Source: an uncultured Alphaproteobacteria bacterium (GTDB lineage Bacteria > Pseudomonadota > Alphaproteobacteria > HIMB59). Taken from it: a DNA stretch of 35,982 nucleotides. The notes below the pieces were generated by a model. The model saw nothing but the letters and a program-made list of their open reading frames with translations, was not told the origin of the DNA and did not search any database. The stretch spans positions 1 to 35,982 of the forward strand of contig CABXVZ010000011.1 in assembly GCA_902515765.1 (NCBI GenBank), given 5' to 3'. Both the position numbers and the translations under genes were made by a program. Below, piece after piece: positions 9,451 through 23,703 of the stretch (positions are counted from its first letter, which is position 1; every line of letters starts with the position of its first letter).

Positions 9451-10611
9451 ATGCCAGGTAAAATTTCACTTTTTGTTCCAGGGCCTACAAATATGCCTGA
9501 TAGGGTTAGACAAGCTATGGACATATCAAACGAGGACCATCGAGCTCCAGGAATGGATAAATTTTGGCATCCGTTAATAAGAGACCTTAGAAAAGTGTTC
9601 GAAACCACATCTGGTCAACCTTTTATTTTTCCAGGAACAGGTAGTAGTGGCTGGGAAGCCGCTTTAACAAATTTATTGAATAAAGGAGATAAGGTATTAT
9701 CCGCGAGATTTGGACAATTTTCTCATTTATGGATTGAAATGTGTAAAAAACTTCACATTGATGTTGAAGTAGTAGACGTGGAATGGGGTGGAGGCACTCC
9801 TCACGATGAGTTTGAAAAAATTCTATCTGAAGATAAAAATCACGCAATTAAAGCTGTATTAGTTACACAAAATGAAACATCAACTGGAGTAACAAATGAT
9901 GTTAAAACTACAAGAGATTTGCTTAATAAACTAAACCATCCTGCTCTTCTTTTTGTTGATGGTGTTAGCTCCATTGGTTCTATCAAGTTTGAAATGGACT
10001 CTTGGGGGGTTGATGTTGCAGTATCTGGATCACAAAAAGGTTTCATGCTCCCTGCTGGCTTAGCTATCAGTTGCGTAAGTCAAAAAGGTTTAGAAATTGC
10101 CAAATCATCAAATTTGCCTAGAGCCTATTTCGACTATCATGACATGATGAATATTAATGAAACTGGATATTGGCCCTACACAAATCCTATGCCTCTTCTA
10201 AGAGGCCTAAGAGAAGCACTTGATATGATGATGGAAGAGGGATTAGATAATATATACTCTAGACATCATTTTCTAGCGCAAGCCGTTCAAAAAGCAACAC
10301 AAGCTTGGGGTTTAAATATTTGCGCTAAAGATCCATCTCTTTACTCTAATACTGTTACTGCAATTATGGTTCCAGAAGGCATTGACTCAACAGACATAGT
10401 TAAAACAGCCTACAATAAGTATAATACTTCATTTGGTGGTGGTCTGAATAAAGTTGCTGGTAAACTATTTAGAATTGGCCACTTAGGTGATCTCAATAGC
10501 ACTATGATATTAGGAGCAATATCTACTGCAGAATTAGCTATGTATGACGTTGGAATTAAATTTGAATTAGGTAGTGGTGTTGCAGCAGCCATTAAACACT
10601 TAAAGGCATAA
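9451..10611 (+). CDS. Class V aminotransferase, serine/alanine-glyoxylate type
   Basis: PLP enzyme of 386 residues in the alanine-glyoxylate / serine-glyoxylate aminotransferase group. Features: LFVPGPTNMPDRVRQAM at the N-terminus, FPGTGSSGWEAALTNLL near residue 60, the PLP-contacting FVDGVSSIGS (about 168), and the Schiff-base Lys196 in SGSQKGFMLPAGLA. SDHRA-like NEDHRAPG at 28-34 is typical of the group. A GAAAGGA ribosome site at 9432-9438 sits 12 bases before the ATG. The next gene, a ketopantoate-reductase-family enzyme, starts 2 bases after its stop, so the two probably act together. Serine plus glyoxylate giving hydroxypyruvate plus glycine is the likeliest reaction; purine catabolism (PucG) and other amino donors remain possible. 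Confidence 0.88.
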   Translation: MPGKISLFVPGPTNMPDRVRQAMDISNEDHRAPGMDKFWHPLIRDLRKVFETTSGQPFIFPGTGSSGWEAALTNLLNKGDKVLSARFGQFSHLWIEMCKKLHIDVEVVDVEWGGGTPHDEFEKILSEDKNHAIKAVLVTQNETSTGVTNDVKTTRDLLNKLNHPALLFVDGVSSIGSIKFEMDSWGVDVAVSGSQKGFMLPAGLAISCVSQKGLEIAKSSNLPRAYFDYHDMMNINETGYWPYTNPMPLLRGLREALDMMMEEGLDNIYSRHHFLAQAVQKATQAWGLNICAKDPSLYSNTVTAIMVPEGIDSTDIVKTAYNKYNTSFGGGLNKVAGKLFRIGHLGDLNSTMILGAISTAELAMYDVGIKFELGSGVAAAIKHLKA

Positions 10612-10613
10612 TT

Positions 10614-11594
10614 GTGAAAATTTGTATTTACGGCGCCGGTGCCATTGGGGGATATCTGGGAGCTAAGCTTACAGAAATTGGAGCTGATGTTACTTTAATC
10701 GCTAGAGGGCCTCATTACGAAGCTATTCGCCAGGATGGACTTCGCCTCAGAAAAGATGGAAAAGAATTAGTCGTCTACCCTAAATGTGTCAACACAGCTG
10801 AAAAAGCTGGAAAGCAAGATTATATATTTGTAACTCTTAAAGCGCATTCTGTCCCCGGTTGTCTCGATGCCTTTGAAGTCTTAATGAAAGATGATACTTC
10901 TTTTGTTTGGGGAGTTAATGGTATTCCTTGGTGGTATTTTTACAATCATCAAAACGCTGATTACAAGGATAAAAGAGTTTCTTCTGTAGATCCTGATGGA
11001 AGTCAATGGAGTCGTATTGGTCCTGAAAAAATTATTGGATGTATAGTCAATCCTGCATCTGAAGTAATTAAACCAGGTGTAATTCAGCATTTAGAGGGAG
11101 ATAAATTCCAATTGGGAGAGATAAATGGTGAAGAAACTGACCGAATTAAAAACCTTTCTAGCACTCTTGAAAAAGCAGGTTTCCAAGCTCCTATTAGACA
11201 AAACATAAAAGGAGATATTTGGTTAAAACTTTTCGGTAATTTGTCCTTAAACCCAATCAGTTCTCTTACTACTTCTACTTTAGTTAAAATATGCAGTGAT
11301 AATGAAGTAAGAAATGTAGTTAAAAATATGATGAATGAAGCTCATGCAATTTCTAAAAGCTTAGGTATTGAAAAACCTTTTGATGTAGAAAGAAGAATAG
11401 ATGCTGCAAAGGCAGTAGGAGAACATAAAACTTCAATGCTTCAGGATCTTGAAAGAGATAGGCCGATGGAAATAGATGCTCTTATTTCCTCAGTGCAGGA
11501 ATTAGGAAGAATTACTAATATTTCTACACCTACGATTGATACCGTGTTAGCCCTCGTGAAACTTAGAGCCAAAGAAGCAAAACTTTATAAATAG
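10614..11594 (+). CDS. Ketopantoate reductase (ApbA/PanE) family oxidoreductase
   Basis: NAD(P)H-dependent 2-oxoacid reductase of 326 residues starting at GTG 10614. Rossmann motif GAGAIGGYLGAKL at 7-19; catalytic-type residues Asn102 (VNGIPWW), Lys205 (KLFGNLSLNP) and Glu286 (RPMEIDAL) line up with the Asn, Lys and Glu of PanE. The NGIPWWYF signature marks a paralogous subgroup often found away from pantothenate genes, so I do not assign panE. Coupling to the aminotransferase suggests it reduces an oxoacid produced there, for instance hydroxypyruvate, but this is inference. It ends 4 bases from the convergent sucD. Confidence 0.85.
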   Translation: MKICIYGAGAIGGYLGAKLTEIGADVTLIARGPHYEAIRQDGLRLRKDGKELVVYPKCVNTAEKAGKQDYIFVTLKAHSVPGCLDAFEVLMKDDTSFVWGVNGIPWWYFYNHQNADYKDKRVSSVDPDGSQWSRIGPEKIIGCIVNPASEVIKPGVIQHLEGDKFQLGEINGEETDRIKNLSSTLEKAGFQAPIRQNIKGDIWLKLFGNLSLNPISSLTTSTLVKICSDNEVRNVVKNMMNEAHAISKSLGIEKPFDVERRIDAAKAVGEHKTSMLQDLERDRPMEIDALISSVQELGRITNISTPTIDTVLALVKLRAKEAKLYK

Positions 11595-11598
11595 TATT

Positions 11599-12471
11599 TT
11601 AATCTAAAGCTTTTTTTATTGTCTCACCAAGCTTAGCTGGTGATTTTGATATATGAACACCCGCTTCTTCGAGAGCATCAAATTTTGATTGAGCAGTTCC
11701 CTTACCTCCAGAAATAATAGCTCCAGCATGGCCCATTCTTTTTCCAGCAGGGGCACTTGCACCAGCGATAAAAGAGGTAACAGGTTTCTTTGTTTGTGCG
11801 TTTTTTATAAATTCAGCTGCTTCCTCTTCAGCAGTTCCTCCAATTTCACCAATCATAATAATACCCTCTGTTTCAGGATCTTTTAAAAAAAGATCTAAGC
11901 AATCGATAAAATTTGTTCCATTAATTGGGTCACCACCAATACCTATGCAAGTAGATTGACCTAAACCTACAGCACTTGTTTGAGCAACTGCCTCATAAGT
12001 CAAGGTACCTGATCTACTTACTACACCAATTTTTCCTTTTTTATGAATATGGCCTGGCATAATTCCAATCTTACATTCATCAGGTGTTATAATTCCTGGA
12101 CAGTTAGGTCCTATTAATCTTGATTGAGAATTTTCTAATTTCTTTTTTACTTTCATCATATCAAGAACAGGAACTCCTTCTGTAATGCACACAATCAACT
12201 CCATATTTGCATCAATCGCTTCGATAATAGCCCCAGCAGCAAATGGCGGAGGGACGTAAATTACAGTGGCTTGAGCTTCTGTATTTTCTTTAGCTTCTTT
12301 AACCGTATTGAATACAGGAAGTCCTAGGTGTTCTTGACCACCTTTTTTGGGAGTTACTCCCCCTACCATTTGGGTGCCATATTTAATTGCTTGTTCAGAG
12401 TGAAAGGTACCCTGTGATCCAGTAAATCCCTGACAAATTACTTTAGTTTCTTTATTTATTAATACTGACAT
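11599..12471 (-). CDS. sucD: Succinate-CoA ligase alpha subunit
   Basis: TCA-cycle enzyme subunit of 290 residues that binds CoA and carries the phosphohistidine. CoA-binding fold at the N-terminus ([16 protein letters not shown]), [10 protein letters not shown] near residue 121, and the active-site His248 in [17 protein letters not shown]. Full length. It follows sucC by 10 bases; its AAAGGAG ribosome site overlaps the sucC stop codon. sucAB and mdh, frequent partners in alphaproteobacteria, are not in the window. Confidence 0.97.
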
Positions 12472-12481
12472 AATTGCTCCT

Positions 12482-13669
12482 TTAGCTCAAAGCTCCTACA
12501 GCTTTTTGAGCTGCGTCTTCTAAATTATCTGCAGAAATAATTGCAAGACCTGATTTGTTAAGTATATCTTTACCTAACTCAACATTTGTACCCTCTAGTC
12601 TTACAACAAGAGGTACTTTAATTGAAAGTTCTTTAGCAGCAGCAACCACACCTTCAGCAATAATATCACATTTCATAATTCCCCCAAAAATATTTACTAA
12701 TATTACTTTTACATTTTGATCTTGGAGAATAATAGAGAATGCTTTCGCTACTCTTTCTTTTGTAGCGCCACCACCAACATCTAGAAAGTTAGCAGGACTT
12801 CCACCATGTAGTTGGATTATATCCATAGTTCCCATTGCTAACCCAGCTCCATTAACCATACATCCTATACTACCATCTAATTTTATATAATTGAGTTCGT
12901 GTTTTGAGGCTTCAACTTCTGCTTCATCTTCTTCTGTTTCATCCCTCATTTCAAAAATATCTTTTTGTTTATAAAGAGCGTTATCATCGATAGAAACTTT
13001 AGCATCAAGGGCTAAAAAATTACCATCACCGTTTAAAACAAAAGGGTTAACTTCAACCAAAGAGGCATCGGACATTAAAAATGTTTTATAAATTTTTTGT
13101 ATTTGATCAGAAAAATCATCTGACTGATCATCAGATATTCCTAGACCATTAATTAGAGTTGAGAGGCTGTTCCGATCTATTTCAGGATCACCTGATATAT
13201 TTACTGTAATAATTTTCTCTGGTTCTTTTTCGGCTACTTCTTCAATTTCCATGCCTCCTTCAGTAGATACTATGATTGAAATTGAAGATGAAGAGCGATC
13301 AACTAGCATACTGAGATAATATTCTTTTTTAATATCACAACCTTCTTCAATATATAGTCTGTTTACTATTTTACCCTTAGATCCAGTTTGCTTAGTTACA
13401 AGGGTTTTTCCAAGCATTTTTTTAGCATTTTCTTTTGCCTCCTCTGGAGAAAAGCAAACTCTAACCCCACCTTTATCATCACCACTATCTAAAAATTTTC
13501 CAGCACCTCTTCCACCAGCGTGGATCTGAGACTTCACAACCATTACTTTAGTGTTGATAGATTCAACTGCAGAGTTGATATCGTCTATATTAAGAATCGG
13601 TATTCCATTTAATACTCTTACATCATTTTTTTTTAGCAAAGTTTTAGCTTGGTATTCATGTAGGTTCAT
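12482..13669 (-). CDS. sucC: Succinate-CoA ligase beta subunit
   Basis: ATP-grasp subunit (395 residues) that forms the nucleotide site of succinyl-CoA synthetase. N-terminal [32 protein letters not shown] (the alphaproteobacterial form with a short insertion), [10 protein letters not shown] for metal binding, [18 protein letters not shown], and [11 protein letters not shown] near the C-terminus. Malate-CoA ligase was considered because of the nearby glyoxylate aminotransferase, but FGGIMKCD and GCMVNGAG match SucC. Its AAGGAG site lies in the last codons of the upstream qor gene. Confidence 0.96.
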
Positions 13670-13671
13670 GA

Positions 13672-14640
13672 TTATTCTCCTTTTATATCCAAAATAATTT
13701 TTCCAATATGATTAGAGGACTCCAATAAATTGTGAGCCAAATTCACATCTTCCATTTTGAAAGTTTGATAAATTGTTGGTTTGTATTTACCTTCTTCTAT
13801 TAAAGGCCAAATATTTTTTAAAACTTGTTTAACAATTTTGCCTTTTTCTTCGGGTGTTCTTGACCTAAGAGTAGATCCAGAAATTTTTAATTGCTTAGTC
13901 ATTACATACAATAAGTTAATCTCAGACTTAATGCTTTCAAGAGCTGCTATAAAAGTAAGACGTCCTTTGAAATTTAATATCTTTAAATTCTTTTTTAAGT
14001 AAGAGCCACCAATCATATCTAAAATAATATCAAGTTTAATTTTCTTATCTCCAAAATACTTTTCAAAGTCAGTAGTTTTATAATTAATTGCATCAGTAGC
14101 TCCTAAAGCAATACATTTTTGACATTTCTCATCAGTTCCTGCAGTAACATATATGCTCTTTGTATAATTTTTTAAAATTGAAATTGCAGTTGTTCCTATA
14201 CCACTGCTACCACCGTGGATTAGTACAGTTTCATTTTCTTTGAATTGGGAAATATTAAATATATTTTCATAAACAGTTAGTATCGTTTCTGGTAAAGCGC
14301 CAGCATCAAGAAGATCTATATTAGATGGAACAGGCATTACCTGTTTTTCATCAACATTGACGAATTCTGCATATCCTCCACCTCCCAATATTGCACAAAC
14401 TTGATCTCCGATTTTAAATTTTTGAACTAAATTACCAACTTTTTCTACAGTACCTGCACACTCAAGACCTATTATTTCACTTTCACCTTTTGGAGGAGGG
14501 TAATGCCCTTTTTTTTGCAAAATATCTGCTCTATTAATACCAGCAGAAAATACTTTGATTTGTATTTGATAATCTGTTGGATTTGATATTGAAACTTCAT
14601 CTACAAAAAGTTCTTCATTTGAATAATTTATAAATTTCAA
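13672..14640 (-). CDS. Quinone oxidoreductase, PIG3-like zinc-independent MDR family
   Basis: NADPH-dependent medium-chain reductase of 322 residues. N-terminal GroES-like domain (AGINRADILQKKGHYPPPKGESEIIGLECAG), then a Rossmann domain with LIHGGSSGIGTTAISILK near residue 142, as in Qor/TP53I3. The zinc-ligand Cys/His set of alcohol dehydrogenases is absent. The start is TTG at 14640, supported by AAGGAC six bases upstream and by the family-like MKFINY beginning. First gene of a qor-sucC-sucD operon, 2 bases before sucC. Its promoter -10 lies inside one of the shared operators. Confidence 0.88.
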   Translation of the reverse strand: MKFINYSNEELFVDEVSISNPTDYQIQIKVFSAGINRADILQKKGHYPPPKGESEIIGLECAGTVEKVGNLVQKFKIGDQVCAILGGGGYAEFVNVDEKQVMPVPSNIDLLDAGALPETILTVYENIFNISQFKENETVLIHGGSSGIGTTAISILKNYTKSIYVTAGTDEKCQKCIALGATDAINYKTTDFEKYFGDKKIKLDIILDMIGGSYLKKNLKILNFKGRLTFIAALESIKSEINLLYVMTKQLKISGSTLRSRTPEEKGKIVKQVLKNIWPLIEEGKYKPTIYQTFKMEDVNLAHNLLESSNHIGKIILDIKGE

Positions 14641-14657: not shown

Positions 14658-14674
14658 TGGTATACATTATACAA
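14658..14674. promoter_or_regulatory. GntR-type operator copy 1 (qor side)
   Basis: TGGTATACATTATACAA, matching TGGTAT-N5-ATACCA with one arm degenerate. It lies 18 bases before the qor start codon and contains, on the minus strand, a perfect TATAAT (14671 to 14666), so a bound repressor would block qor-sucCD transcription. The same 13-base core is repeated at 14711-14726 (inverted) and 18712-18728. Confidence 0.65.
14666..14671 (-). promoter_or_regulatory. Candidate -10 box of the qor-sucC-sucD promoter
   Basis: Read on the minus strand this is a consensus TATAAT, 26 bases before the TTG of qor. No well-spaced -35 is evident (TTGATA at 14700-14695 leaves a 23-base spacer). Overlap with the operator suggests either repression or activator-dependent transcription. 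Confidence 0.4.
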
Positions 14675-14710
14675 ATATTAAAAACAATTCCTCTTATCAA
14701 GTCGATTAAA

Positions 14711-14726
14711 AGATAATGTATACCAA
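14711..14726. promoter_or_regulatory. GntR-type operator copy 2 (tct side)
   Basis: On the minus strand TTGGTATACATTATCT, i.e. an inverted copy of the operator at 14658-14674, with the second arm degraded. It lies 114 bases before the tctC start, in the divergent qor/tctC spacer. The two sites face each other 36 bases apart, which would allow one regulator to control both directions. Confidence 0.6.
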
Positions 14727-14742
14727 GGTTATTTTCTCATAT

Positions 14743-14759
14743 GTTTCATTTTATGAAAC
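14743..14759. repeat. Palindrome upstream of tctC, possible second operator
   Basis: GTTTCATTTTATGAAAC: two perfect 7-base arms around TTT. It differs from the TGGTAT operator and resembles the GAAAC/GTTTC palindromes bound by IclR-family regulators. No such regulator is encoded in this window. It could also be a small mRNA hairpin if transcription starts upstream. Confidence 0.4.
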
Positions 14760-14840
14760 TTTTAAATTTTTTTTTATACAATTTTTTCTAAATAGTTTAT
14801 GTTAATCATTCATAATTTTTAAACCTAGGAGGAATAAAAT

Positions 14841-15818
14841 ATGACAATTATAAAAAAACTAGCGTTAGTTGTTGTCTCACTATCACTTGTAGCAGTGAGT
14901 TCAGTATCTTCCGCTAAACCATTCAGCCCCAAGAAACCTGTTGAGCTAATCATTCCAGCTGGACAAGGTGGTGGTGCTGATGAGATCGCAAGACTTGTTC
15001 AAGGTGTTATTGAAAAAAATGACTATGCCTCCAAGCCTGTGATTCCAATTAATAAAAAAGGTGGATCAGGTGGAGAAGCTATGACTTATGTTAAGAAAAA
15101 AGCTGGTGATGAGCACACACTTATGATCACACTTAACAATGTCTTAACTACACCTACTAACCAACCTGAATTAGGAATTGATTTCTTTAATGACTTTACG
15201 CCATTAGCAAGACTTATCACTGATACATTCCTTGTATGGATTGCTACAGAAGGTAAGAACACTGCTGGCATAGATACATTTGATGATTTCATTTCTTTAG
15301 CTAAAGGAAATGGCTTAGTGATGGGTGGTACAGGAAGTATGTCTGAAGATGAATTACTTCTTGGAATGATGAGAGGTCAATTTGGATTTGATGCTAAATA
15401 TGTTCCTTACAGCGGCGGTGGAGCCGTTGCTAAAGGTCTAGTTGGTGGTGAGTCTGACTTCACATTAAATAATCCTTCAGAGCAAATGGGATTCTATCAA
15501 TCAGGTGACTCAAAAGCTTTAGTGATGATGACTCCTGAAAGAAACCCAGCATTCCCTGAGGTTCCTTCTTCATATGAACTAGGTTATCCTGATCTTGAAT
15601 ACTATATGATGAGAGCATTTATGGCTCCAGCTGGTATTGATGCAGAAGTAGAGAAGTACTACACTGGTCTTCTTCACACTGTTTATCATGATAATGAGTT
15701 CCAAACTTTCAATATTGATGACGGAAAGTTAATGAGCTGGTTAGAAGGATACGGTCTTAAGGATTTCTTAGCGATCGAATATGACAAGCACGCAGTAATT
15801 ATTGAGAACTTTCAGTAA
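14841..15818 (+). CDS. tctC: Tripartite tricarboxylate transporter substrate-binding protein
   Basis: Periplasmic binding protein (325 residues) of a TTT-family transporter, capturing a di- or tricarboxylate or related acid for TctAB. Signal peptide with a basic start and hydrophobic core, cleavage likely after SSA at 25. The mature start PKKPVELIIPAGQGGGADEIAR is the family signature (KPVxxIVPxxxGGxxD), followed by KKGGSGGEA and YVPYSGGGAVAKGLVGGESDF. A perfect AGGAGG at 14827-14832, 8 bases before the ATG, is the strongest ribosome site in the window and fits the high expression of binding proteins. First gene of tctC-tctB-tctA-gntR. The ligand cannot be read from the sequence. Confidence 0.92.
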   Translation: MTIIKKLALVVVSLSLVAVSSVSSAKPFSPKKPVELIIPAGQGGGADEIARLVQGVIEKNDYASKPVIPINKKGGSGGEAMTYVKKKAGDEHTLMITLNNVLTTPTNQPELGIDFFNDFTPLARLITDTFLVWIATEGKNTAGIDTFDDFISLAKGNGLVMGGTGSMSEDELLLGMMRGQFGFDAKYVPYSGGGAVAKGLVGGESDFTLNNPSEQMGFYQSGDSKALVMMTPERNPAFPEVPSSYELGYPDLEYYMMRAFMAPAGIDAEVEKYYTGLLHTVYHDNEFQTFNIDDGKLMSWLEGYGLKDFLAIEYDKHAVIIENFQ

Positions 15819-15844
15819 TTAGATAATTAATTAAGAGCGAGTAA

Positions 15845-16459
15845 ATGAGCATAGTAAATAAATTTACAGTTAGAAGAGCAGAAATTACTGTAGCTGTAGT
15901 TTTAGCACTGTGCTCTATCGCTCTTATGACGAAAAGTGCACAGAACAGGATTACTTGGAGTGCCGAAGAGAATATGGGGGCAGGATTTCTTCCTTTTTAC
16001 TTATCTCTTGGTATGTTGATATGCACTGTTTTAACTATTGTTAAATTCATTTTAAAAAAATCACCTCAATCAAAAGACACTTCTGCTTTTATAGATCCTG
16101 AAGCTTTTAAGTTTGTTTCAGTGACTTTAATTTCTCTTATTGTTTTAGTCTTTACAATTGGTTATTTAGGTATTTATTTTTCTTTAATTTTTTTTTTAGC
16201 TTTTTACCTTAGATATTTTAGTGAAAAAAGTATTTCATTTATTACTATATTTTCTTTAACCACACCTATCTTAACTTTCTTATTCTTTGAGTGGTTGTTA
16301 AAAATTCCTTTACCTCAAGGTATCTCCGAACCCTTGTTTTATCCTGTCTATGACTTTATGTATGGTAAGATCACAATGCCTATAAAAATGATATTTATTG
16401 TTTTAACAATATTTTTACCAACTGCTTTAGTGCTCTTAATTAATAGATTTATAAAATAA
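15845..16459 (+). CDS. tctB: Tripartite tricarboxylate transporter small membrane subunit TctB
   Basis: Inner-membrane protein of 204 residues with four main hydrophobic segments plus a C-terminal one, matching the TctB (DUF1468) profile. The segment AEENMGAGFLPFYLSLGMLI near residue 40 is the conserved loop before TM2 of the family. It lies between the binding protein and the large permease; gap 26 bases upstream, 28 downstream. Slightly longer than the usual 150-180 residues because of an extra C-terminal hydrophobic helix. Confidence 0.88.
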   Translation: MSIVNKFTVRRAEITVAVVLALCSIALMTKSAQNRITWSAEENMGAGFLPFYLSLGMLICTVLTIVKFILKKSPQSKDTSAFIDPEAFKFVSVTLISLIVLVFTIGYLGIYFSLIFFLAFYLRYFSEKSISFITIFSLTTPILTFLFFEWLLKIPLPQGISEPLFYPVYDFMYGKITMPIKMIFIVLTIFLPTALVLLINRFIK

Positions 16460-16487
16460 TTATATTGAGAGAAATTAGTTAAACTAC

Positions 16488-18014
16488 ATGGAAACCTTCG
16501 GATTATTACTAGATGGAGTCTTTACATCACTTCAGTGGTTTAATCTGGCATTATTAATATTTGGCTGCTTAATAGGCTTGTTTGTCGGTGCTATGCCTGG
16601 TCTAGGATCAGTTAATGGTGTCGCTATCCTTATTCCTATAACCTTTATAGTACCTCCCACGGCTGCTATTATTTTTTTAGCTGCAGTGTACTACGGAGCG
16701 ATGTACGGAGGCGCTATTAGTTCTGTGATGTTAGGTATACCGGGTGCATCCACGGCTGTGGCTACAGTATTTGATGGAAGACCATTAGCTGTTAAAGGAG
16801 AGGCTATGACAGCATTAACAGCAGCCGCTGTTGGTTCATTTGTTGGTGGTACTGTTTCTGTTATTTTGTTTACTCTATTTGCACCACCTCTTGCTGAAGT
16901 TGCTTTAAGGTTTAATGCTCCAGAAACATTTGCATTAATGGTAATGGCTTTTGCAACCTTTGTAGGTTTAGGTGGAGACGATATTCCAAAAACTATTTTT
17001 TCAATTTTAATTGGACTAGCTTTATCAACTATTGGTTTGGATTTGATTACAGGAAAACCAAGATTAATTTTCTTTAACATACCTGGGTTTCTCCATGGAA
17101 TTAATTTCCTTGTTCTTGCTATTGGTATTTATGGAATTGGTGAAATGCTTTGGACTCTTGAGGAAACAAAAGGAAAAGTTCAAATGTCAAAACTATCTGT
17201 AAACATGAAGGAAGTAGGAAGAGCATTTGGGGCCCTTAAAAAAACTTTAATGGCAATGAATATAGGATCCTTTTTAGGTTTTTTTGTTGGTATTCTTCCA
17301 GCAGCTGGAGCAACACCAGCATCTTTAATGTCATACGGTATAACTAAGCAGCTTTCCAAAAATTCTAAAGAATTTGGTACTGGAGTTCCTGCGGGAGTTG
17401 TTGCACCAGAGTGTGCTAATAATTCGGCCAGTACTGGAAGTATGCTGCCAATGTTAACTCTTGGTATTCCTGGTTCTCCTACAACAGCTATTCTTTTAGG
17501 AGGTATGATACTTTGGGGTTTAACACCTGGCCCACTCTTGTTTACTCAGGAACCTGAATTTGTTTGGGGTTTGATCGGAAGTCTTTACATTGCAAACTTC
17601 TTTACACTTGTTTTAAATATTGCTCTTATCCCCGCATTCTTAATGGTATTAAGGATACCTTTTGCTATTTTAGCTCCGGTAATTTTTGTTTTATGTGTTA
17701 CTGGTGGTTACGCACCAACACAAAGTCTTCATGATGTATGGCTAATGTTACTTTTTGGTTTTGGCGGTTACGTTCTAAGAAAACTTGACTATCCAGTTGC
17801 TCCTGCAGTTCTATCAATAGTGTTGGGACCTTTAGCAGAAAACGCTTTAAGACAATCTTTAATTTTATCTGATGGAAGTATGGGTATCTTCTTTGACTTT
17901 GCTTCTAAGCCAATCGCAGCAATAATTATGTACATTGCAATTGTGTTATTAATTATGCCGGCCTTTGGACCCTTATACAGAAAAATTTTTAAAAAGACTC
18001 TAAGTAAAGCCTAG
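16488..18014 (+). CDS. tctA: Tripartite tricarboxylate transporter large permease TctA
   Basis: Main permease (508 residues, usual size, about 11-12 membrane segments). Family signatures are clear: GAMPGLGSVNGVAILIP near residue 32, YYGAMYGGAISSVMLGIPG near residue 68, and the second half repeat with FFVGILPAAGATPASLMSY and ECANNSASTGSMLPMLTLGIPG. TTT systems are secondary, ion-gradient-driven transporters, so uptake would depend on the proton or sodium gradient. gntR begins 8 bases after its stop. Confidence 0.95.
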   Translation: METFGLLLDGVFTSLQWFNLALLIFGCLIGLFVGAMPGLGSVNGVAILIPITFIVPPTAAIIFLAAVYYGAMYGGAISSVMLGIPGASTAVATVFDGRPLAVKGEAMTALTAAAVGSFVGGTVSVILFTLFAPPLAEVALRFNAPETFALMVMAFATFVGLGGDDIPKTIFSILIGLALSTIGLDLITGKPRLIFFNIPGFLHGINFLVLAIGIYGIGEMLWTLEETKGKVQMSKLSVNMKEVGRAFGALKKTLMAMNIGSFLGFFVGILPAAGATPASLMSYGITKQLSKNSKEFGTGVPAGVVAPECANNSASTGSMLPMLTLGIPGSPTTAILLGGMILWGLTPGPLLFTQEPEFVWGLIGSLYIANFFTLVLNIALIPAFLMVLRIPFAILAPVIFVLCVTGGYAPTQSLHDVWLMLLFGFGGYVLRKLDYPVAPAVLSIVLGPLAENALRQSLILSDGSMGIFFDFASKPIAAIIMYIAIVLLIMPAFGPLYRKIFKKTLSKA

Positions 18015-18022
18015 AAGAATAT

Positions 18023-18682
18023 ATGATTCAAAAGATTGGCTCTATAAATTTAAAAAGTAAAGTATACGACTCCCTAAAGAAATATATTCTTTCTTTAAAT
18101 ATATATTTGAGAGAAAGGGACTTCCATTTAGATGAGAGACAACTTTCAGAAAAATTAGGCGTGAGTCGAACTCCTATTCGTGAAGCTATTGCTAAATTAG
18201 AACAAGACGGCATTGTGAGAACAGTTCCAAGAAGAGGTGTTTTTGTTCATAGAAAATCTAAAAAAGAGCTTATTGATATTGTAACTGTCTGGGCAGGACT
18301 GGAGGGATATGCGGCTCATCTTATTATTAAAAATTCTAATAAAGAAGAAATAGAGACGCTTAACAAATATTGCCAATACTCTAAGCAGAATGTTTTGTCT
18401 GATTTAGATAACTACTCAAATGATAATATTAAGTTTCACGAGCGTATAATGAAGTTAACAAAGGTAAAATTAATGGGTGAGATATTAGAATCCCAACTCA
18501 TACACCTACAATATTTAAGAAAAAAATTCATCATTGAGTCTGACAGATCAGTTAAGTCAATAGATGAACATAATGATATAATCAAATCTCTTGTCGCAGG
18601 ACATGGGGTAAAAGCAGAAAAACTTCTGAAAAACCATGCTTTAACACTTGTTGAAAAAATACAAGAAAGCATTAATTCCTAA
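18023..18682 (+). CDS. GntR-family regulator with FCD domain
   Basis: Regulator of 219 residues. The winged HTH is at about 8-75, with LDERQLSEKLGVSRTPIREAIAKLEQDGIV, and the FCD sensor domain at about 80-210, with the metal/ligand pattern NIKFHERIM, DEHNDIIKSL and KNHALTL supplying Asp/His ligands. FCD regulators of this type sense carboxylates. It is encoded right after tctA and just before the TDP enzyme, and the TGGTAT-N5-ATACCA sites at 14658, 14711 and 18712 have the form of FadR/FCD operators, so it is the obvious candidate to bind them. Local repressor released by the transported acid is the simplest model; this is inference. Confidence 0.92.
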   Translation: MIQKIGSINLKSKVYDSLKKYILSLNIYLRERDFHLDERQLSEKLGVSRTPIREAIAKLEQDGIVRTVPRRGVFVHRKSKKELIDIVTVWAGLEGYAAHLIIKNSNKEEIETLNKYCQYSKQNVLSDLDNYSNDNIKFHERIMKLTKVKLMGEILESQLIHLQYLRKKFIIESDRSVKSIDEHNDIIKSLVAGHGVKAEKLLKNHALTLVEKIQESINS

Positions 18683-18693
18683 ACCAAAATTCT

Positions 18694-18722
18694 TTGAAAC
18701 TTCAATAAATCTGGTATACATT
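18694..18722 (+). promoter_or_regulatory. Candidate promoter of the TDP enzyme-frc operon
   Basis: TTGAAA (18694-18699) with TACATT (18717-18722) at 17 bases; an alternative -10 is TATACA at 18715-18720. Both alternatives fall inside the operator at 18712-18728, so regulator binding would exclude RNA polymerase. Visual prediction. Confidence 0.45.
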
Positions 18723-18728
18723 ATACCA
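18712..18728. promoter_or_regulatory. GntR-type operator copy 3, best match
   Basis: TGGTATACATTATACCA: perfect 6-base arms TGGTAT/ATACCA around ACATT. It is the most complete of the three sites and lies 18 bases before the ATG of the TDP enzyme, overlapping the predicted -10. It shares the asymmetric centre ACATT with the other two copies, which argues against chance. Confidence 0.7.
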
Positions 18729-18745: not shown

Positions 18746-20422
18746 ATGTCTACAGGAACTAATGAACAAATGATAACTGGCGGTGAGCTAGTAGCTAAGG
18801 CCCTTAAAGCAGAGGGAGTTGAAGTTATTTATACACTATGTGGTGGCCACATAATTGATATTTACAATGGATGTTTAAATGAAGGAATTAAAATTATCGA
18901 TGTTAGGCATGAAGAAGTTGCCTCTCATGCAGCCGATGGTTATGCAAGAATGACAGGAAAACCAGGTTGTGCAGTTGTTACGGCTGGTCCTGGTACTACT
19001 CATGCTCTTACTGGAGTTGCAAATGCATTTAGAGCAGAAATCCCTATGCTCTTGATTGGTGGACAAAGTTCTCTTACCCAACATAAAATGGGATCTCTCC
19101 AAGACCTTCCTCACGTAGACATGATGCAGCCCATTACTAAATTTGCATCCACTGTTATGTCTACTGAAAGATGTGCAGATATGGTTTCAATGGCGTTTAG
19201 AGAAACTAGAAATGGATCGTTCGGACCATCTTTTTTAGAGATACCTCGTGATATTTTAGACTCCTCAATACCTATCAGTAAAGCTGTTCTTCCTGAAACT
19301 GGAAAATATAGTGCTTCATCCAAAACATTAGCAGATCCTGTTGATGTTCAAAAAGCTGCAGATATTATTTCAAAAGCAGAAAGACCATGTGTTTTGTTAG
19401 GTCAGCAAGTTTGGACATGTCAATCTACTGATGATGCAGTTGAATTTGTAAGAAATTTAAATATACCCGCATACCTTAACGGGGCAGCTAGAGGTTCTTT
19501 AGCTCCTGGAGACCCACATCATTTTCATAGAACTCGAAGAAATGCATTTACAAAATCAGATTGCATTATAATTGTGGGAACTCCTTTTGATTTCCGAATG
19601 GGGTATGGCAAAAGATTAAATCCAAATGCTACTGTTATCCAAATTGATATGGATTATAGAACTGTTGGTAAAAATAGAGATATATCATTAGGCTTAGTAG
19701 GACATATAGGAACTACTCTTAAAGCTATTTCTGAAGCTGGAGTTAAACAAGATAGATCAGACTGGTTTAACGAGTTAAGAGCTGGAGAAGAAGCCGCTCT
19801 TGAGAAGTTGATGCCTACATTTACTACAGAAAAATCCCCAATTAGCCCATACAGAGTTGCTTGGGAATTAAATCAATTTTTAAATGATGACACTATTTAT
19901 ATAGGCGATGGCGGTGATGTTGTAACAATCAGCGCTCAAGCAGTTCAGCCAAGACAACCAGGAGCTTGGATGGATCCAGGTCCATTAGGAACACTGGGTG
20001 TTGGAGTTCCGTATGCTTTAGCTGCTAAGTTAGCTGCCCCTGATAAAGAAATTCTTCTATATTGTGGAGATGGAGCCTTTTCTATGACGGGAATGGACTT
20101 TGAAGCATTTGTTCGTCACAAAGCGCCAGTCCTAACTGTAATAGGTAATAATTCTGCTCAAAATCAAATTAGATTTGGTCAAATTATGAAATACGGAGAA
20201 GAAAAAGGTAATGTTGGAAATATTCTGGGCGACGTTAACTTTGATGAGTTTGCAAAAATCTTTGGTGGTTATGGAGAAGCGGTTAGAGAAGCAAAAGATA
20301 TCCAGCCTGCACTTCAAAGAGCAAGAGAAGCCGTTAAATCTGGGATACCTGCAATTGTAAATATTTGGGTGGATAAAGAAGAGTTTGCTCCTGGTACTAA
20401 AAACCAGACAATGTACAAATAA
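18746..20422 (+). CDS. Thiamine-diphosphate lyase/decarboxylase, oxalyl-CoA decarboxylase or 2-hydroxyacyl-CoA lyase-like
   Basis: TDP enzyme of the acetolactate synthase superfamily, 558 residues, three domains: PYR (about 10-175) with catalytic Glu56 in DVRHEEVASHAADGYAR; central Rossmann-like domain (about 195-330); PP (about 370-540) with the Mg/TDP motif GDGAF (441) to NN (468-469). It is followed 17 bases later by frc, the partner of oxalyl-CoA decarboxylase, so a formyl-CoA-forming decarboxylase or 2-hydroxyacyl-CoA lyase is likely. However, the signatures I know from Oxc (the NEGAN strand, the GIY after NN, the Tyr-Glu loop near 120) are replaced by IGDGGDVV, SAQNQ and LQDLPHVD. No acetolactate synthase small subunit accompanies it. 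Reaction unproven. GAGAGG before the ATG is a good ribosome site. Confidence 0.7.
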   Translation: MSTGTNEQMITGGELVAKALKAEGVEVIYTLCGGHIIDIYNGCLNEGIKIIDVRHEEVASHAADGYARMTGKPGCAVVTAGPGTTHALTGVANAFRAEIPMLLIGGQSSLTQHKMGSLQDLPHVDMMQPITKFASTVMSTERCADMVSMAFRETRNGSFGPSFLEIPRDILDSSIPISKAVLPETGKYSASSKTLADPVDVQKAADIISKAERPCVLLGQQVWTCQSTDDAVEFVRNLNIPAYLNGAARGSLAPGDPHHFHRTRRNAFTKSDCIIIVGTPFDFRMGYGKRLNPNATVIQIDMDYRTVGKNRDISLGLVGHIGTTLKAISEAGVKQDRSDWFNELRAGEEAALEKLMPTFTTEKSPISPYRVAWELNQFLNDDTIYIGDGGDVVTISAQAVQPRQPGAWMDPGPLGTLGVGVPYALAAKLAAPDKEILLYCGDGAFSMTGMDFEAFVRHKAPVLTVIGNNSAQNQIRFGQIMKYGEEKGNVGNILGDVNFDEFAKIFGGYGEAVREAKDIQPALQRAREAVKSGIPAIVNIWVDKEEFAPGTKNQTMYK

Positions 20423-20439: not shown

Positions 20440-21687
20440 ATGGAAGCTCTTAAAGGTGTAAAAGTATTGGACATGACTCATGTTCAATCAGGACCTACTT
20501 GTACTCAACTTCTTGCTTGGTTTGGTGCGGATGTTGTTAAAGTTGAAAGACCCGGAGTAGGAGATGCTACTCGTGGTCAGCTAAGAGACGTCCCTGAAGC
20601 TGATAGTCTTTACTTCACGATGCTCAATTCTAATAAAAGAAGCATTACTCTTAATCCTAAAAAACCAGAAGGTTCTAAAATTTTTACTCAACTCATCAAA
20701 GAATGTGATGTGATGGTTGAAAATTTTGCCCCCGGCGCCCTAGATAGAATGGGTTTCTCATGGGAGAAAATTCAAGAGATTAATCCTCGTATGATTTATG
20801 CCTCTGTAAAAGGTTTTGGACCAGGGCAGTATGAAGAATGTAAAGTTTATGAGAATGTGGCCCAATGTGCTGGAGGTTCTGCTTCCACAACAGGAATGCT
20901 GGGTGAGGTACCAATGGTTACAGGAGCCCAAATCGGTGATAGTGGTACAGGTCTTCATTTAGCTTTAGGAATTGTCACAGCTTTATTTCACAGAGAAAAG
21001 TCTGGAAAAGGACAAAGAGTATCTGCTGCTATGCAAGACGGAGTTTTAAATCTTTGTCGCGTAAAGCTGCGAGACCAACAACGATTAGAAAAAGGACCTC
21101 TCAAAGAATATTCCCAATTTGGTGAAGATATTCCTTTTGGAGAGGCAACCCCTAGAGCTGGAAATGACTCCGGTGGCGGCCAACCAGGTAGAATTTTAAA
21201 GTGTAAAGGATGGGAGACAGACCCCAATGCCTATACTTACTTTATAACACAGGCTGCTGTATGGGAAAAAGTCTGTGACGTTATTGGAAAGCCTGAGTGG
21301 AAAGAAGATGAAAATTATTCTACCCCAGCTCTTCGATTACCTCGTTTAAACGAAATTTTTAATACTATCGAGGCCTGGACGATGACTAAAACGAAGTTTG
21401 AAGTCATGGATTTATGTAATCCTCTTGATATACCAGTAGGACCAATTCTTTCATTAAAAGAAATAGCAGAAGACCCTGGTTTAAGGGAAACAGGAACAGT
21501 AGTTGAAGTTGACCATCCAGTGAGGGGAAAATATTTAACAGTAGGAAACCCAATTAAATTATCTGACTCACCTGCAATAGTAAAACGTTCACCTTTATTA
21601 GGAGAACATACTGATGAAATTTTAAAAGAATTTTGTAATATGACAGACGATGAAATTAAAGCTGTGAAAGAAGCTGGAGCAGTTTAA
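20440..21687 (+). CDS. frc: Formyl-CoA:oxalate CoA-transferase (class III, CaiB/BaiF family)
   Basis: Moves CoA from formyl-CoA to oxalate or a similar acid, giving formate and the acyl-CoA. It has 415 residues, as in E. coli YfdW and Oxalobacter Frc, which it resembles along the whole length as I remember them ([50 protein letters not shown]). Catalytic Asp167 is in [10 protein letters not shown]; Tyr137 and Gln16 are conserved. Gln47 matches the E. coli enzyme rather than the Trp of Oxalobacter. The active-site glycine loop reads SGGGQ (244-248) instead of GGGGQ. It lies between the TDP enzyme and a formyl-folate enzyme; AAGGTAGG is its ribosome site. Oxalate is the best-supported acceptor but a related 2-hydroxy acid cannot be excluded. 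Confidence 0.9.
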
Positions 21688-21711: not shown

Positions 21712-22629
21712 ATGAAGATTATTTTAATGGGACAACAAGCATTTGGTAAAAGCGCTTTAGAAAAATTTCATACAGAGACAAATCATGACGTGGTAGCAGT
21801 TTATTGTGCTCCTGATAAAGAGGGCAAACCAGCTGATCCAGTAAAAGATTATGCTCAAAGCGTAGGTCTTCCTGTTTTTCAACCATCAAACTTCAAAGAC
21901 CAAGAAGTTCTTGATCAGATAAAATCTCATGATGCTGATTTGTGTGTAATGGCATACGTCACAATATTTGTTCCCGAAGGAGCTAGAGATATTCCTAAAC
22001 ATGGTTCTATTTGCTTTCATCCATCTTTACTCCCACTTCACAGAGGTCCAAGCTCAATTAACTGGCCTATTATAGGAGGTGCTACCAAAACAGGTTTGAC
22101 AATATTTTATCCCAATGATGGATTAGATGAGGGAGAAATTCTTCTCCAAAAAGAAGTTGAAATAGGTCCTGACGATACTTTAGGAGATGTATATTTTTCT
22201 AAGATTTTCCCTTTAGGGGTAGATGCTTGCATTGAAGCAGCTGATATGATGGAAGCAGGTAGTCCTCCACGTATTGTTCAAGATGAAACTAAAGCTACTT
22301 ATGAGTCATGGTGTAAAAAAGCAGATGCCAGAATAGATTGGAAAAAACCAGGAAGAGAAATTTACAATCTTATAAGAGGTTGCAACCCACAACCAGGGGC
22401 ATGGGCAGAGTTTATGGGAGATGAATTCACTTTTGTTGATACAAAATTTAATGATCAACAAAGTGCAGAACACTTTCCTGGTCAGATTATTTCAATAAAC
22501 GCCGAAAACATCGAAATTGCAGTTAAAGGAGGCTTTATTGAAGTTTCTCGATTTAAGTCTGATCAAGGTAAGCTTTACGTCAAGGATATGAATACTGCAG
22601 TGTTTACAGAAGGCGATTTATTCTCATAA
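21712..22629 (+). CDS. Stand-alone 10-formyltetrahydrofolate hydrolase/formyltransferase domain protein
   Basis: 305 residues matching the N-terminal hydrolase domain of 10-formyl-THF dehydrogenase (ALDH1L) rather than Met-tRNA formyltransferase: MKIILMGQQAFGKSAL, HDVVAVYCAPDKEGKPADP, then HPSLLPLHRGPSSINW (103-118). Catalytic His103 and Asp139 (NDGLDEG) are 36 residues apart, the spacing in the mammalian enzyme (His106, Asp142). A formyl_trans_C-like domain follows from about residue 205. The acyl-carrier and aldehyde dehydrogenase domains of full ALDH1L are absent. Third gene of the TDP enzyme-frc operon (24-base gap, GAGGAG ribosome site), so it probably handles a formyl group made by that pathway: hydrolysis of 10-formyl-THF, or transfer between formyl-CoA and folate. 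The latter is speculation. Confidence 0.85.
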   Translation: MKIILMGQQAFGKSALEKFHTETNHDVVAVYCAPDKEGKPADPVKDYAQSVGLPVFQPSNFKDQEVLDQIKSHDADLCVMAYVTIFVPEGARDIPKHGSICFHPSLLPLHRGPSSINWPIIGGATKTGLTIFYPNDGLDEGEILLQKEVEIGPDDTLGDVYFSKIFPLGVDACIEAADMMEAGSPPRIVQDETKATYESWCKKADARIDWKKPGREIYNLIRGCNPQPGAWAEFMGDEFTFVDTKFNDQQSAEHFPGQIISINAENIEIAVKGGFIEVSRFKSDQGKLYVKDMNTAVFTEGDLFS

Positions 22630-22638
22630 TAGCTCACA

Positions 22639-23133
22639 GTGGCTAAACAGTATAAAGATTCACTTAAGACATTATCCTTCATAGTTTATTTCATAATACT
22701 TTTTGTGTTATGGCTTGTATTATCGGGATATTTAAAAACATTATTATTATTTTTTGGTCTTGTAAGTGTTTTATTTGTCATATGGATGTCCTATAGAGCT
22801 AATGCCTTAGAAGAAGACTCCCTTCCTATTAAATTAATTTTAAAATTACCATTCTATTGGTTATGGCTTTTTAAAGAAATTTTTAAATCGGGCATCATTA
22901 CAACTGCTTTAATTTGGAATGGAAAATTTGCACCACAATTGTTCAGGATCAGAGCTTCTCAAAAAAGTACAACAGGTATTGCTAACTATGCTAATGCAAT
23001 AACTCTTACTCCAGGAACGGTTACAATAGAAGTAGAAAAAAAGACTCTTCTTGTTCATGCTTTAAATAAAAAATTATCTGAAGATTTACAATCAGAAGAT
23101 ATGGATAAAGTAATTACTGGCTTAGATAAATGA
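22639..23133 (+). CDS. mnhE: Mrp antiporter subunit E
   Basis: Membrane protein of 164 residues (GTG start) with two or three N-terminal hydrophobic segments and a cytoplasmic C-terminus. Conserved MnhE traits: FVLWLVLSG, then LPFYWLWLFKEIFKSGI, and NAITLTPGTVTIEV near residue 125, the hallmark of the family. It starts only 9 bases after the formyl-folate enzyme gene, so read-through is likely, and overlaps mnhF by ATGA. First subunit of the cation/proton antiporter cluster. Confidence 0.93.
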   Translation: MAKQYKDSLKTLSFIVYFIILFVLWLVLSGYLKTLLLFFGLVSVLFVIWMSYRANALEEDSLPIKLILKLPFYWLWLFKEIFKSGIITTALIWNGKFAPQLFRIRASQKSTTGIANYANAITLTPGTVTIEVEKKTLLVHALNKKLSEDLQSEDMDKVITGLDK

Positions 23134-23399
23134 TATTTTTTTTAACATTGTCGATTTTAGGGATCTCTGTATTTATGTGTTTAGTAAGGGCCATAAAAGG
23201 ACCAACCCCATTTGACAGAATACTTTCTATTTCAAGTATAGGTACAATTATAGCTATTGGCATTAGCGTACATGGCTTTGCTTTTAACAGACCTGATTTT
23301 GTTGATATTTCTCTTATGTATGTATTGCTGAACTTCTTGGGAACCATAGCAATTTTAAGGTATTACAAAATAAAAAATAAAAAAACTAATGTCATATAA
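23130..23399 (+). CDS. mnhF: Mrp antiporter subunit F
   Basis: 89 residues with three membrane helices. The motif CLVRAIKGPTPFDRILSISSIG (residues 17-38, conserved RxxxGPxxxDR) identifies MnhF/MrpF. Overlaps its neighbours by 4 and 11 bases. Part of the membrane antiporter complex. Confidence 0.93.
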   Translation: MIFFLTLSILGISVFMCLVRAIKGPTPFDRILSISSIGTIIAIGISVHGFAFNRPDFVDISLMYVLLNFLGTIAILRYYKIKNKKTNVI

Positions 23400-23703
23400 T
23401 TTTATAGAAATTTTCTCAATTATTTCATTAATTCTTGGTTGTTTTTTTATCTTATCAGGTAGTCTTGGGTTAATAAAACTTCCTGACGTATTTAGTAGAA
23501 TTCATGCTGCTGGGTTAATAGACACCCTTGGATCAGGATTTATTGTTCTAGCTTTAATTATATACTCAGGTTTTAGTTTATTAAGCCTAAAGCTAGTTCT
23601 AATACCAATATTTCTTTTATTTACGAGTCCCGTTACAAGCCATGCTATCTCTCTATTTGCTTATGAGTCAGGCCATAAACCAAAAGCTAAAATCAAAAAA
23701 TGA
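23389..23703 (+). CDS. mnhG: Mrp antiporter subunit G
   Basis: 104 residues with three membrane helices. GSLGLIKLPDVFSRIHAAGLIDTLGSG is the MnhG/MrpG signature (GxxGxxRLPDxxxRxHA), and TSPVTSHAISLFAYESG follows, also conserved. It overlaps mnhF by 11 bases and the next gene by ATGA. Confidence 0.93.
   Translation: MSYNFIEIFSIISLILGCFFILSGSLGLIKLPDVFSRIHAAGLIDTLGSGFIVLALIIYSGFSLLSLKLVLIPIFLLFTSPVTSHAISLFAYESGHKPKAKIKK

Follow-up and report, generated by a model that had tools for sequence, protein, structure and literature searches.

We found that a 17-bp sequence, TGGTATACAWTATACCA, recurs around an FCD-type gntR gene in the window, the 35,982-nucleotide stretch of uncultured alphaproteobacterial DNA analyzed here, and that it is conserved between species and accompanies orthologous regulators beside oxalate genes in distant alphaproteobacteria. 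Our model, which we consider probable, is that this sequence is the operator of the adjacent FCD GntR protein, acting as a repressor of oxalate and formyl-CoA/one-carbon metabolism. The window is contig C11 of a 0.96-Mb genome (64% complete) whose named relatives in a tblastn search were genomes of HIMB59 type and of uncultured alphaproteobacteria. HIMB59-type genomes correspond to SAR11 subclade V, or AEGEAN-169 (PMC10308909).

Table 1. Predicted operator sites and surrounding genes in the window
Feature	Position	Strand	Sequence or family evidence
Glyoxylate aminotransferase (BhcA/Sga type), conserved neighbor	9451-10611	+	NF045640, 566 bits, below cut-off of 650
panE2-like reductase, possible oxalyl-CoA reductase, conserved neighbor	10614-11594	+	NF005089, 450.8 bits
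sucD	11599-12471	-	NF004230, 481.8 bits
sucC	12482-13669	-	NF001913, 541.6 bits; only sucC found in closed relative
qor, PIG3-family oxidoreductase, first gene behind site 1	13672-14640	-	TIGR02824, 398 bits
Operator site 1	14658-14674	+	TGGTATACATTATACAA, 1 mismatch to TGGTATACATTATACCA
Site 2, one-armed copy	14709-14725 (core 14713-14725)	-	TGGTATACATTAT followed by CTTT (ACCA in a full site)
tctC-type solute-binding protein, tripartite tricarboxylate transporter	14841-15818	+	PF03401
tctB-type subunit	15845-16459	+	PF07331
tctA-type permease	16488-18014	+	PF01970, 479 bits
gntR, FCD-type GntR regulator, proposed repressor	18023-18682	+	PF00392 and PF07729 above cut-off
Operator site 3	18712-18728	+	Exact TGGTATACATTATACCA, 0 mismatches
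TPP enzyme (TPP-B) in oxc slot, non-canonical candidate oxalyl-CoA decarboxylase	18746-20422	+	TIGR03254, 243 bits
frc, formyl-CoA:oxalate CoA-transferase	20440-21687	+	TIGR03253, 695 bits; YfdW 1pqy, 1.6e-164
fmtL, formyltransferase, 10-formyl-THF dehydrogenase hydrolase-domain-like	21712-22629	+	4qpd, 2.6e-61

The first-pass annotation had described three copies of a TGGTAT-N5-ATACCA operator in the window, two of them overlapping predicted −10 boxes. Sites 1 and 3 are full copies and the asymmetric center ACATT is, as described, common to the copies, while site 2 is a one-armed copy and no palindrome; it keeps the 13 left bases and its second arm is absent, so we do not count it as a full operator. 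With up to 3 mismatches allowed, the full sequence matched the window three times (two sites, one counted on both strands) against 0.13 matches expected, and none of 100 shuffled windows reached three matches. The gapped pattern TGGTATN5ATACCA, scanned across the window at the same tolerance, gave 24 matches versus 20, which is chance level, so the operator signal lies in the full sequence with its ACATT center. Site 1 is 17 nt 5′ of the qor start codon (TTG in the window and, by alignment, ATG in several relatives), directly upstream of the qor Shine-Dalgarno sequence, and site 3 is 17 nt 5′ of the TPP-enzyme ATG. A −10 overlap was borne out at site 3, where the promoter-like match TTGAAA-17-TACATT spans 18694-18722. 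Near the sites, sigma-70-like matches do not clearly outnumber those in shuffled sequence, and the predicted −35 and −10 elements are not clearly above chance in this AT-rich DNA; it is therefore the position of the sites that points to promoter overlap.

Both full sites persist in relatives that retain the genes. All 20 genus genomes carry the exact 17-mer of site 3, its position 10 being T or A, in the spacer between gntR and the TPP-enzyme gene (tpp). Site 1, in the qor-tctC spacer, is an exact TKGTATACAWTATACMA in 18 of the 20 and has 1 mismatch in the other 2. The flanks of these conserved sites vary between genomes. Because the genus genomes are closely related, a count of 20 of 20 overstates independence; the distant members (72 to 75% GntR identity) also retain sites 1 and 3. 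Site 2 is kept in about 9 of the 20 genomes, where the length between sites 1 and 2 is little changed, and is lost in the rest. The qor-tctC spacer of MED-G104 (L041, 6548-6619) holds an array of four GTATAC cores.

Across whole genomes, few matches occur within 1 mismatch, and the genes that they mark are linked in function. In the closed relative (G001), there are 6 such sites against 0.26 expected under a second-order Markov model, and they include those at qor-sucCD, the TPP-frc operon, fhs, and pntAB; across ten genomes, 34 of 37 matches within 1 mismatch fall on qor, tpp, fhs, pntA, or mcl. The formate-THF ligase gene fhs (NF010030, 908 bits; cut-off, 652) has an operator 26 to 37 nt before its start in all 17 genomes read, and the window's own genome carries this site on contig C9 with 1 mismatch. 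The pntA-pntB operator, compared among genomes other than G008 (L166), is lineage-restricted: it is exact in the HIMB59-like sublineage and has 1 mismatch in G007, another sublineage has a decayed copy, and others have none. In one genome, G009, the operator precedes genes for a CitE-like lyase and then a second SucCD-like pair, which from their sequence resemblance we take to be mcl-mtkAB. The regulon is thus larger than first proposed: the assignment of qor-sucCD and the TPP-frc operon to it stood, and its scope proved too small, since operators also lie at fhs, in some lineages at pntAB, and once at mcl-mtkAB. A genome-wide scan with up to 2 mismatches gave 67 matches versus 41 for a control pattern, and these largely noisy matches were discarded. 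Single-mismatch operator-like sites, unproven as operators, were also seen in G001 upstream of an ABC sugar transporter (L097, 6066) and over the start of a small membrane gene (L098, 6358, and L099, 6183; two genomes, G001 and G006).

The predicted regulator has an N-terminal GntR winged helix (PF00392, 51.0 bits; cut-off, 27) and a C-terminal FCD domain (PF07729, 52.4 bits; cut-off, 24.3). Its residues N135, H139, H183, and H205 are invariant in 11 orthologues, and this set (Asp/Asn plus three His) is what we take to be the FCD metal ligands. Frc homologues were collected from 24 of 289 sampled alphaproteobacteria, and 12 of the frc loci contain an orthologous GntR (36 to 42% identity among those aligned). 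These regulator genes adjoin frc plus either a canonical OXC (>1,000 bits) or TPP-B, and the loci often include tct genes, fmtL, and fhs. With a PWM built from the HIMB59 sites, we found the operator in the spacer before gntR in 11 of 11 readable loci (P ≤ 0.02, with a floor of 0.0099), at 62 to 67% GC and in about nine genera; the 17-mer is identical in L151, and in L142 tctC, gntR, and tpp are each preceded by a site. Among frc loci without this GntR, there was no comparable match except one with 3 mismatches in an AT-richer genome. The regulator-operator pair therefore recurs beside oxalate genes far outside the genus. In G332, a second frc homologue has a second operator-like site, TGGCATACCAAATACCA, on its upstream side (L145, 19454). 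The literature matches listed for the operator string were only to unrelated work, and a search for GntR with oxalate returned no description of such a regulator.

Two other explanations of the sites bear on these data. The motif could be a chance AT-rich or promoter sequence shared without any regulator, as might be suspected from the chance-level behavior of the loose gapped pattern and the resemblance of TATAC-like strings to −10 boxes; we give this negligible probability, and it is already contradicted by the exact conservation inside diverged spacers, the excess of sites in the closed relative, and the presence of the operator in GC-rich genomes. Alternatively, the sites might belong to a different transcription factor, with gntR merely a neighbor. 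The GntR-operator pairing is a prediction from sequence, and G001 has a second FCD gene, a relative of which, other than the window's gntR, is carried by G024 (69% complete). Against this, no operator lies near the second FCD gene, most near-complete genomes that retain the sites lack this gene, and the same 17-mer precedes gntR orthologues in nine or so other genera, so that a different factor is highly improbable. On these grounds, we rejected the second FCD regulator as the cognate factor; most near-complete genus genomes encode no FCD regulator besides the window's GntR.

Other FCD repressors act by promoter occlusion and are released by an acid effector. Promoter occlusion with release by an acid is also the mode of action that we favor here, because at qor, tpp, fhs, and pntA only about 17 to 37 nt separate the operator from the start codon downstream. 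It is improbable, in our judgment, that GntR instead acts at the sites as an activator, or as activator and repressor both; this would suit the qor-tctC spacer, where the sites are >100 nt 5′ of tctC and sites 1 and 2 are centered 51 bp apart, but the short distances at the four other genes fit blocking.

The acid to which the first-pass annotation tied this regulon is most likely oxalate. Frc scores 695.4 on TIGR03253 against an oxalate-specific cut-off of 504.2, which by family score predicts a bona fide formyl-CoA:oxalate CoA-transferase. The TPP enzyme scores 243.2 on the OXC model TIGR03254, where the cut-off is 739.4. The active-site pair of MeOXC is Y134/E135 (PMC8411744), and the motif that holds this Tyr-Glu pair, GDYEE in OXC, reads QDLPH in TPP-B. 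Similarly, the catalytic Glu493 of AcHACL, a position that we mapped from mutagenesis primers (PMC8760513), is Ile in all nine TPP-B sequences. We therefore rejected the TPP enzyme as a canonical OXC or HACL, as it fell short of both families. TPP-B and canonical OXC are mutually exclusive among 17 genomes (all 12 with TPP-B lack OXC, and five have OXC), and sister clusters hold canonical OXC in the same gntR-frc slot. This exclusivity in one slot, despite the absent OXC and HACL residues, suggests that TPP-B functionally replaces OXC. Because the TPP enzyme itself falls below the OXC model, it is Frc and the sister clusters that identify oxalate as the substrate. The TPP-B clade beside frc was seen in the window (18746-20422) and in L137, L142, L146, L148, and L150 to L153.

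The same operator and regulator could also serve a 2-hydroxy acid, with the TPP enzyme as a 2-hydroxyacyl-CoA lyase yielding formyl-CoA plus an aldehyde or ketone and Frc recycling the CoA. Among solved structures, those closest to the TPP enzyme are such lyases (7pt3, 1.5e-77), and it scores higher on the HACL model than on OXC (352 versus 243 bits). However, both scores are below cut-off, the nine-of-nine loss of Glu493 and the strict alternation with OXC in the gntR-frc slot argue otherwise, and Frc is far above its oxalate-specific cut-off; we assign a 2-hydroxy acid substrate a small but real probability and continue with oxalate as the preferred reading.

The order glyoxylate aminotransferase, panE2-like gene, sucDC-qor, tctCBA, gntR, TPP enzyme, frc, and fmtL is common to the relatives read, as far as contigs reach, and all three components of a tripartite tricarboxylate transporter (TctA, TctB, and TctC) are present. 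No operator of its own was seen at the panE2-like gene, homologues of which occur in the outgroup frc loci L150 and L152. The gene takes its name by analogy from a Methylobacterium enzyme regarded as a putative oxalyl-CoA reductase (PMC8411744), and its product is possibly such a reductase. In L152 (6939-8930), a glyoxylate carboligase gene adjoins frc, TPP-B, and panE2, an arrangement consistent with reduction of oxalyl-CoA to glyoxylate. FmtL falls below the methionyl-tRNA formyltransferase model (TIGR00460, 165.5 bits; cut-off, 201.5), and a separate fmt-like gene, distinct from fmtL, is found elsewhere in the genomes. Over almost its whole length, the protein aligns with the hydrolase domain of 10-formyl-THF dehydrogenase, and it has retained the HPSLLP and DGLD motifs. 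Proteins of this fold transfer formyl groups between a phosphopantetheine thiol and folate, and such a transfer with CoA has been proposed for HypX, its N-terminal domain moving formyl from THF to CoA (PMC6802093). Transfer from formyl-CoA to THF by FmtL is therefore plausible, and we regard FmtL as a candidate formyl-CoA:THF formyltransferase. Unlike 10-formyl-THF dehydrogenase and HypX, FmtL is a separate protein, encoded next to formyl-CoA enzymes, and may therefore catalyze the opposite transfer. MnhE/MnhG-type Na+/H+ antiporter genes (22639-23703) begin 10 bp past fmtL and may be cotranscribed with the frc operon; the more distant members of the genus showed no such neighbors. The proposed local regulon with its inclusion of qor-sucCD withstood the computational tests applied. 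Most of these genomes, the closed one among them, carry a single sucC, and sucCD is the only succinyl-CoA synthetase found in most of them; with a site before qor-sucCD, a TCA enzyme is therefore placed under the predicted regulator.

We infer binding, repression, effector, pathway fluxes, and CoA donation by SucCD along the following lines. Without effector, GntR dimers would occupy operators over the −10/start-site region and prevent transcription of qor-sucCD, TPP enzyme-frc-fmtL, and fhs, as well as of pntAB or mcl-mtkAB in some lineages. Judging from where they lie, the qor-tctC spacer sites may regulate tctCBA-gntR as well, although no full-quality operator stands directly before tctC. 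Binding of an effector, which is probably oxalate itself or an acid or CoA ester derived from it, would release GntR. Oxalate would then enter via TctABC and be converted by Frc to oxalyl-CoA, which would yield formyl-CoA through the TPP enzyme or glyoxylate through PanE2, while FmtL and Fhs would bring formyl and formate into the folate pool, PntAB would supply NADPH, and SucCD would supply succinyl-CoA as CoA donor. It is a more tentative, rather doubtful reading that all parts hold jointly, with one operator-repressor pair linking the sole TCA succinyl-CoA synthetase with the supply of oxalate, since removal of oxalyl-CoA (by PanE2) and of formyl-CoA (by FmtL) would need succinyl-CoA as CoA donor, and with the new TPP-B class carrying out oxalyl-CoA decarboxylation.

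The system is of a familiar kind, an FCD repressor with a local regulon. The FCD GntR repressors FadR, PdhR, LldR, ExuR/UxuR, and PmiR likewise combine a GntR winged helix with an FCD domain and have adjacent catabolic genes, and their operators are presumably also short AT-centered palindromes with similar TGGT/ACCA ends. In contrast to theirs, the predicted operator here is the 17-bp TGGTAT-N5-ATACCA sequence and the regulon is one of oxalate and one-carbon genes with the sole sucCD. The canonical oxc-frc oxalate cluster, with its PanE2 oxalyl-CoA reductase in Methylobacterium, is alike in its bona fide frc, its panE2-like gene, and its link to fhs, and sister clusters with a true OXC have the same gntR and operator; the HIMB59 cluster differs in having a non-canonical TPP enzyme for OXC, the TctABC transporter, and sucCD under the same operator. 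Three features are surprising: the regulon takes in the sole sucCD, it reaches distal one-carbon targets, and two of its enzymes, TPP-B and FmtL, are unassigned.

The HIMB59/AEGEAN-169 genome paper contains no match for "formyl," and our literature search found no paper mentioning both HIMB59 and oxalate. These results offer a testable regulon and substrate, oxalate, for HIMB59/AEGEAN-169, link oxalate to one-carbon metabolism in the ocean, and point to two enzyme functions that are directly testable. The regulator-operator pair holds from 33% to 67% GC, and it places the sole TCA succinyl-CoA synthetase under a putative catabolic repressor. Thus, in a common, abundant, and streamlined marine clade, one regulator probably coinduces oxalate uptake, one-carbon metabolism, and the sole succinyl-CoA synthetase.
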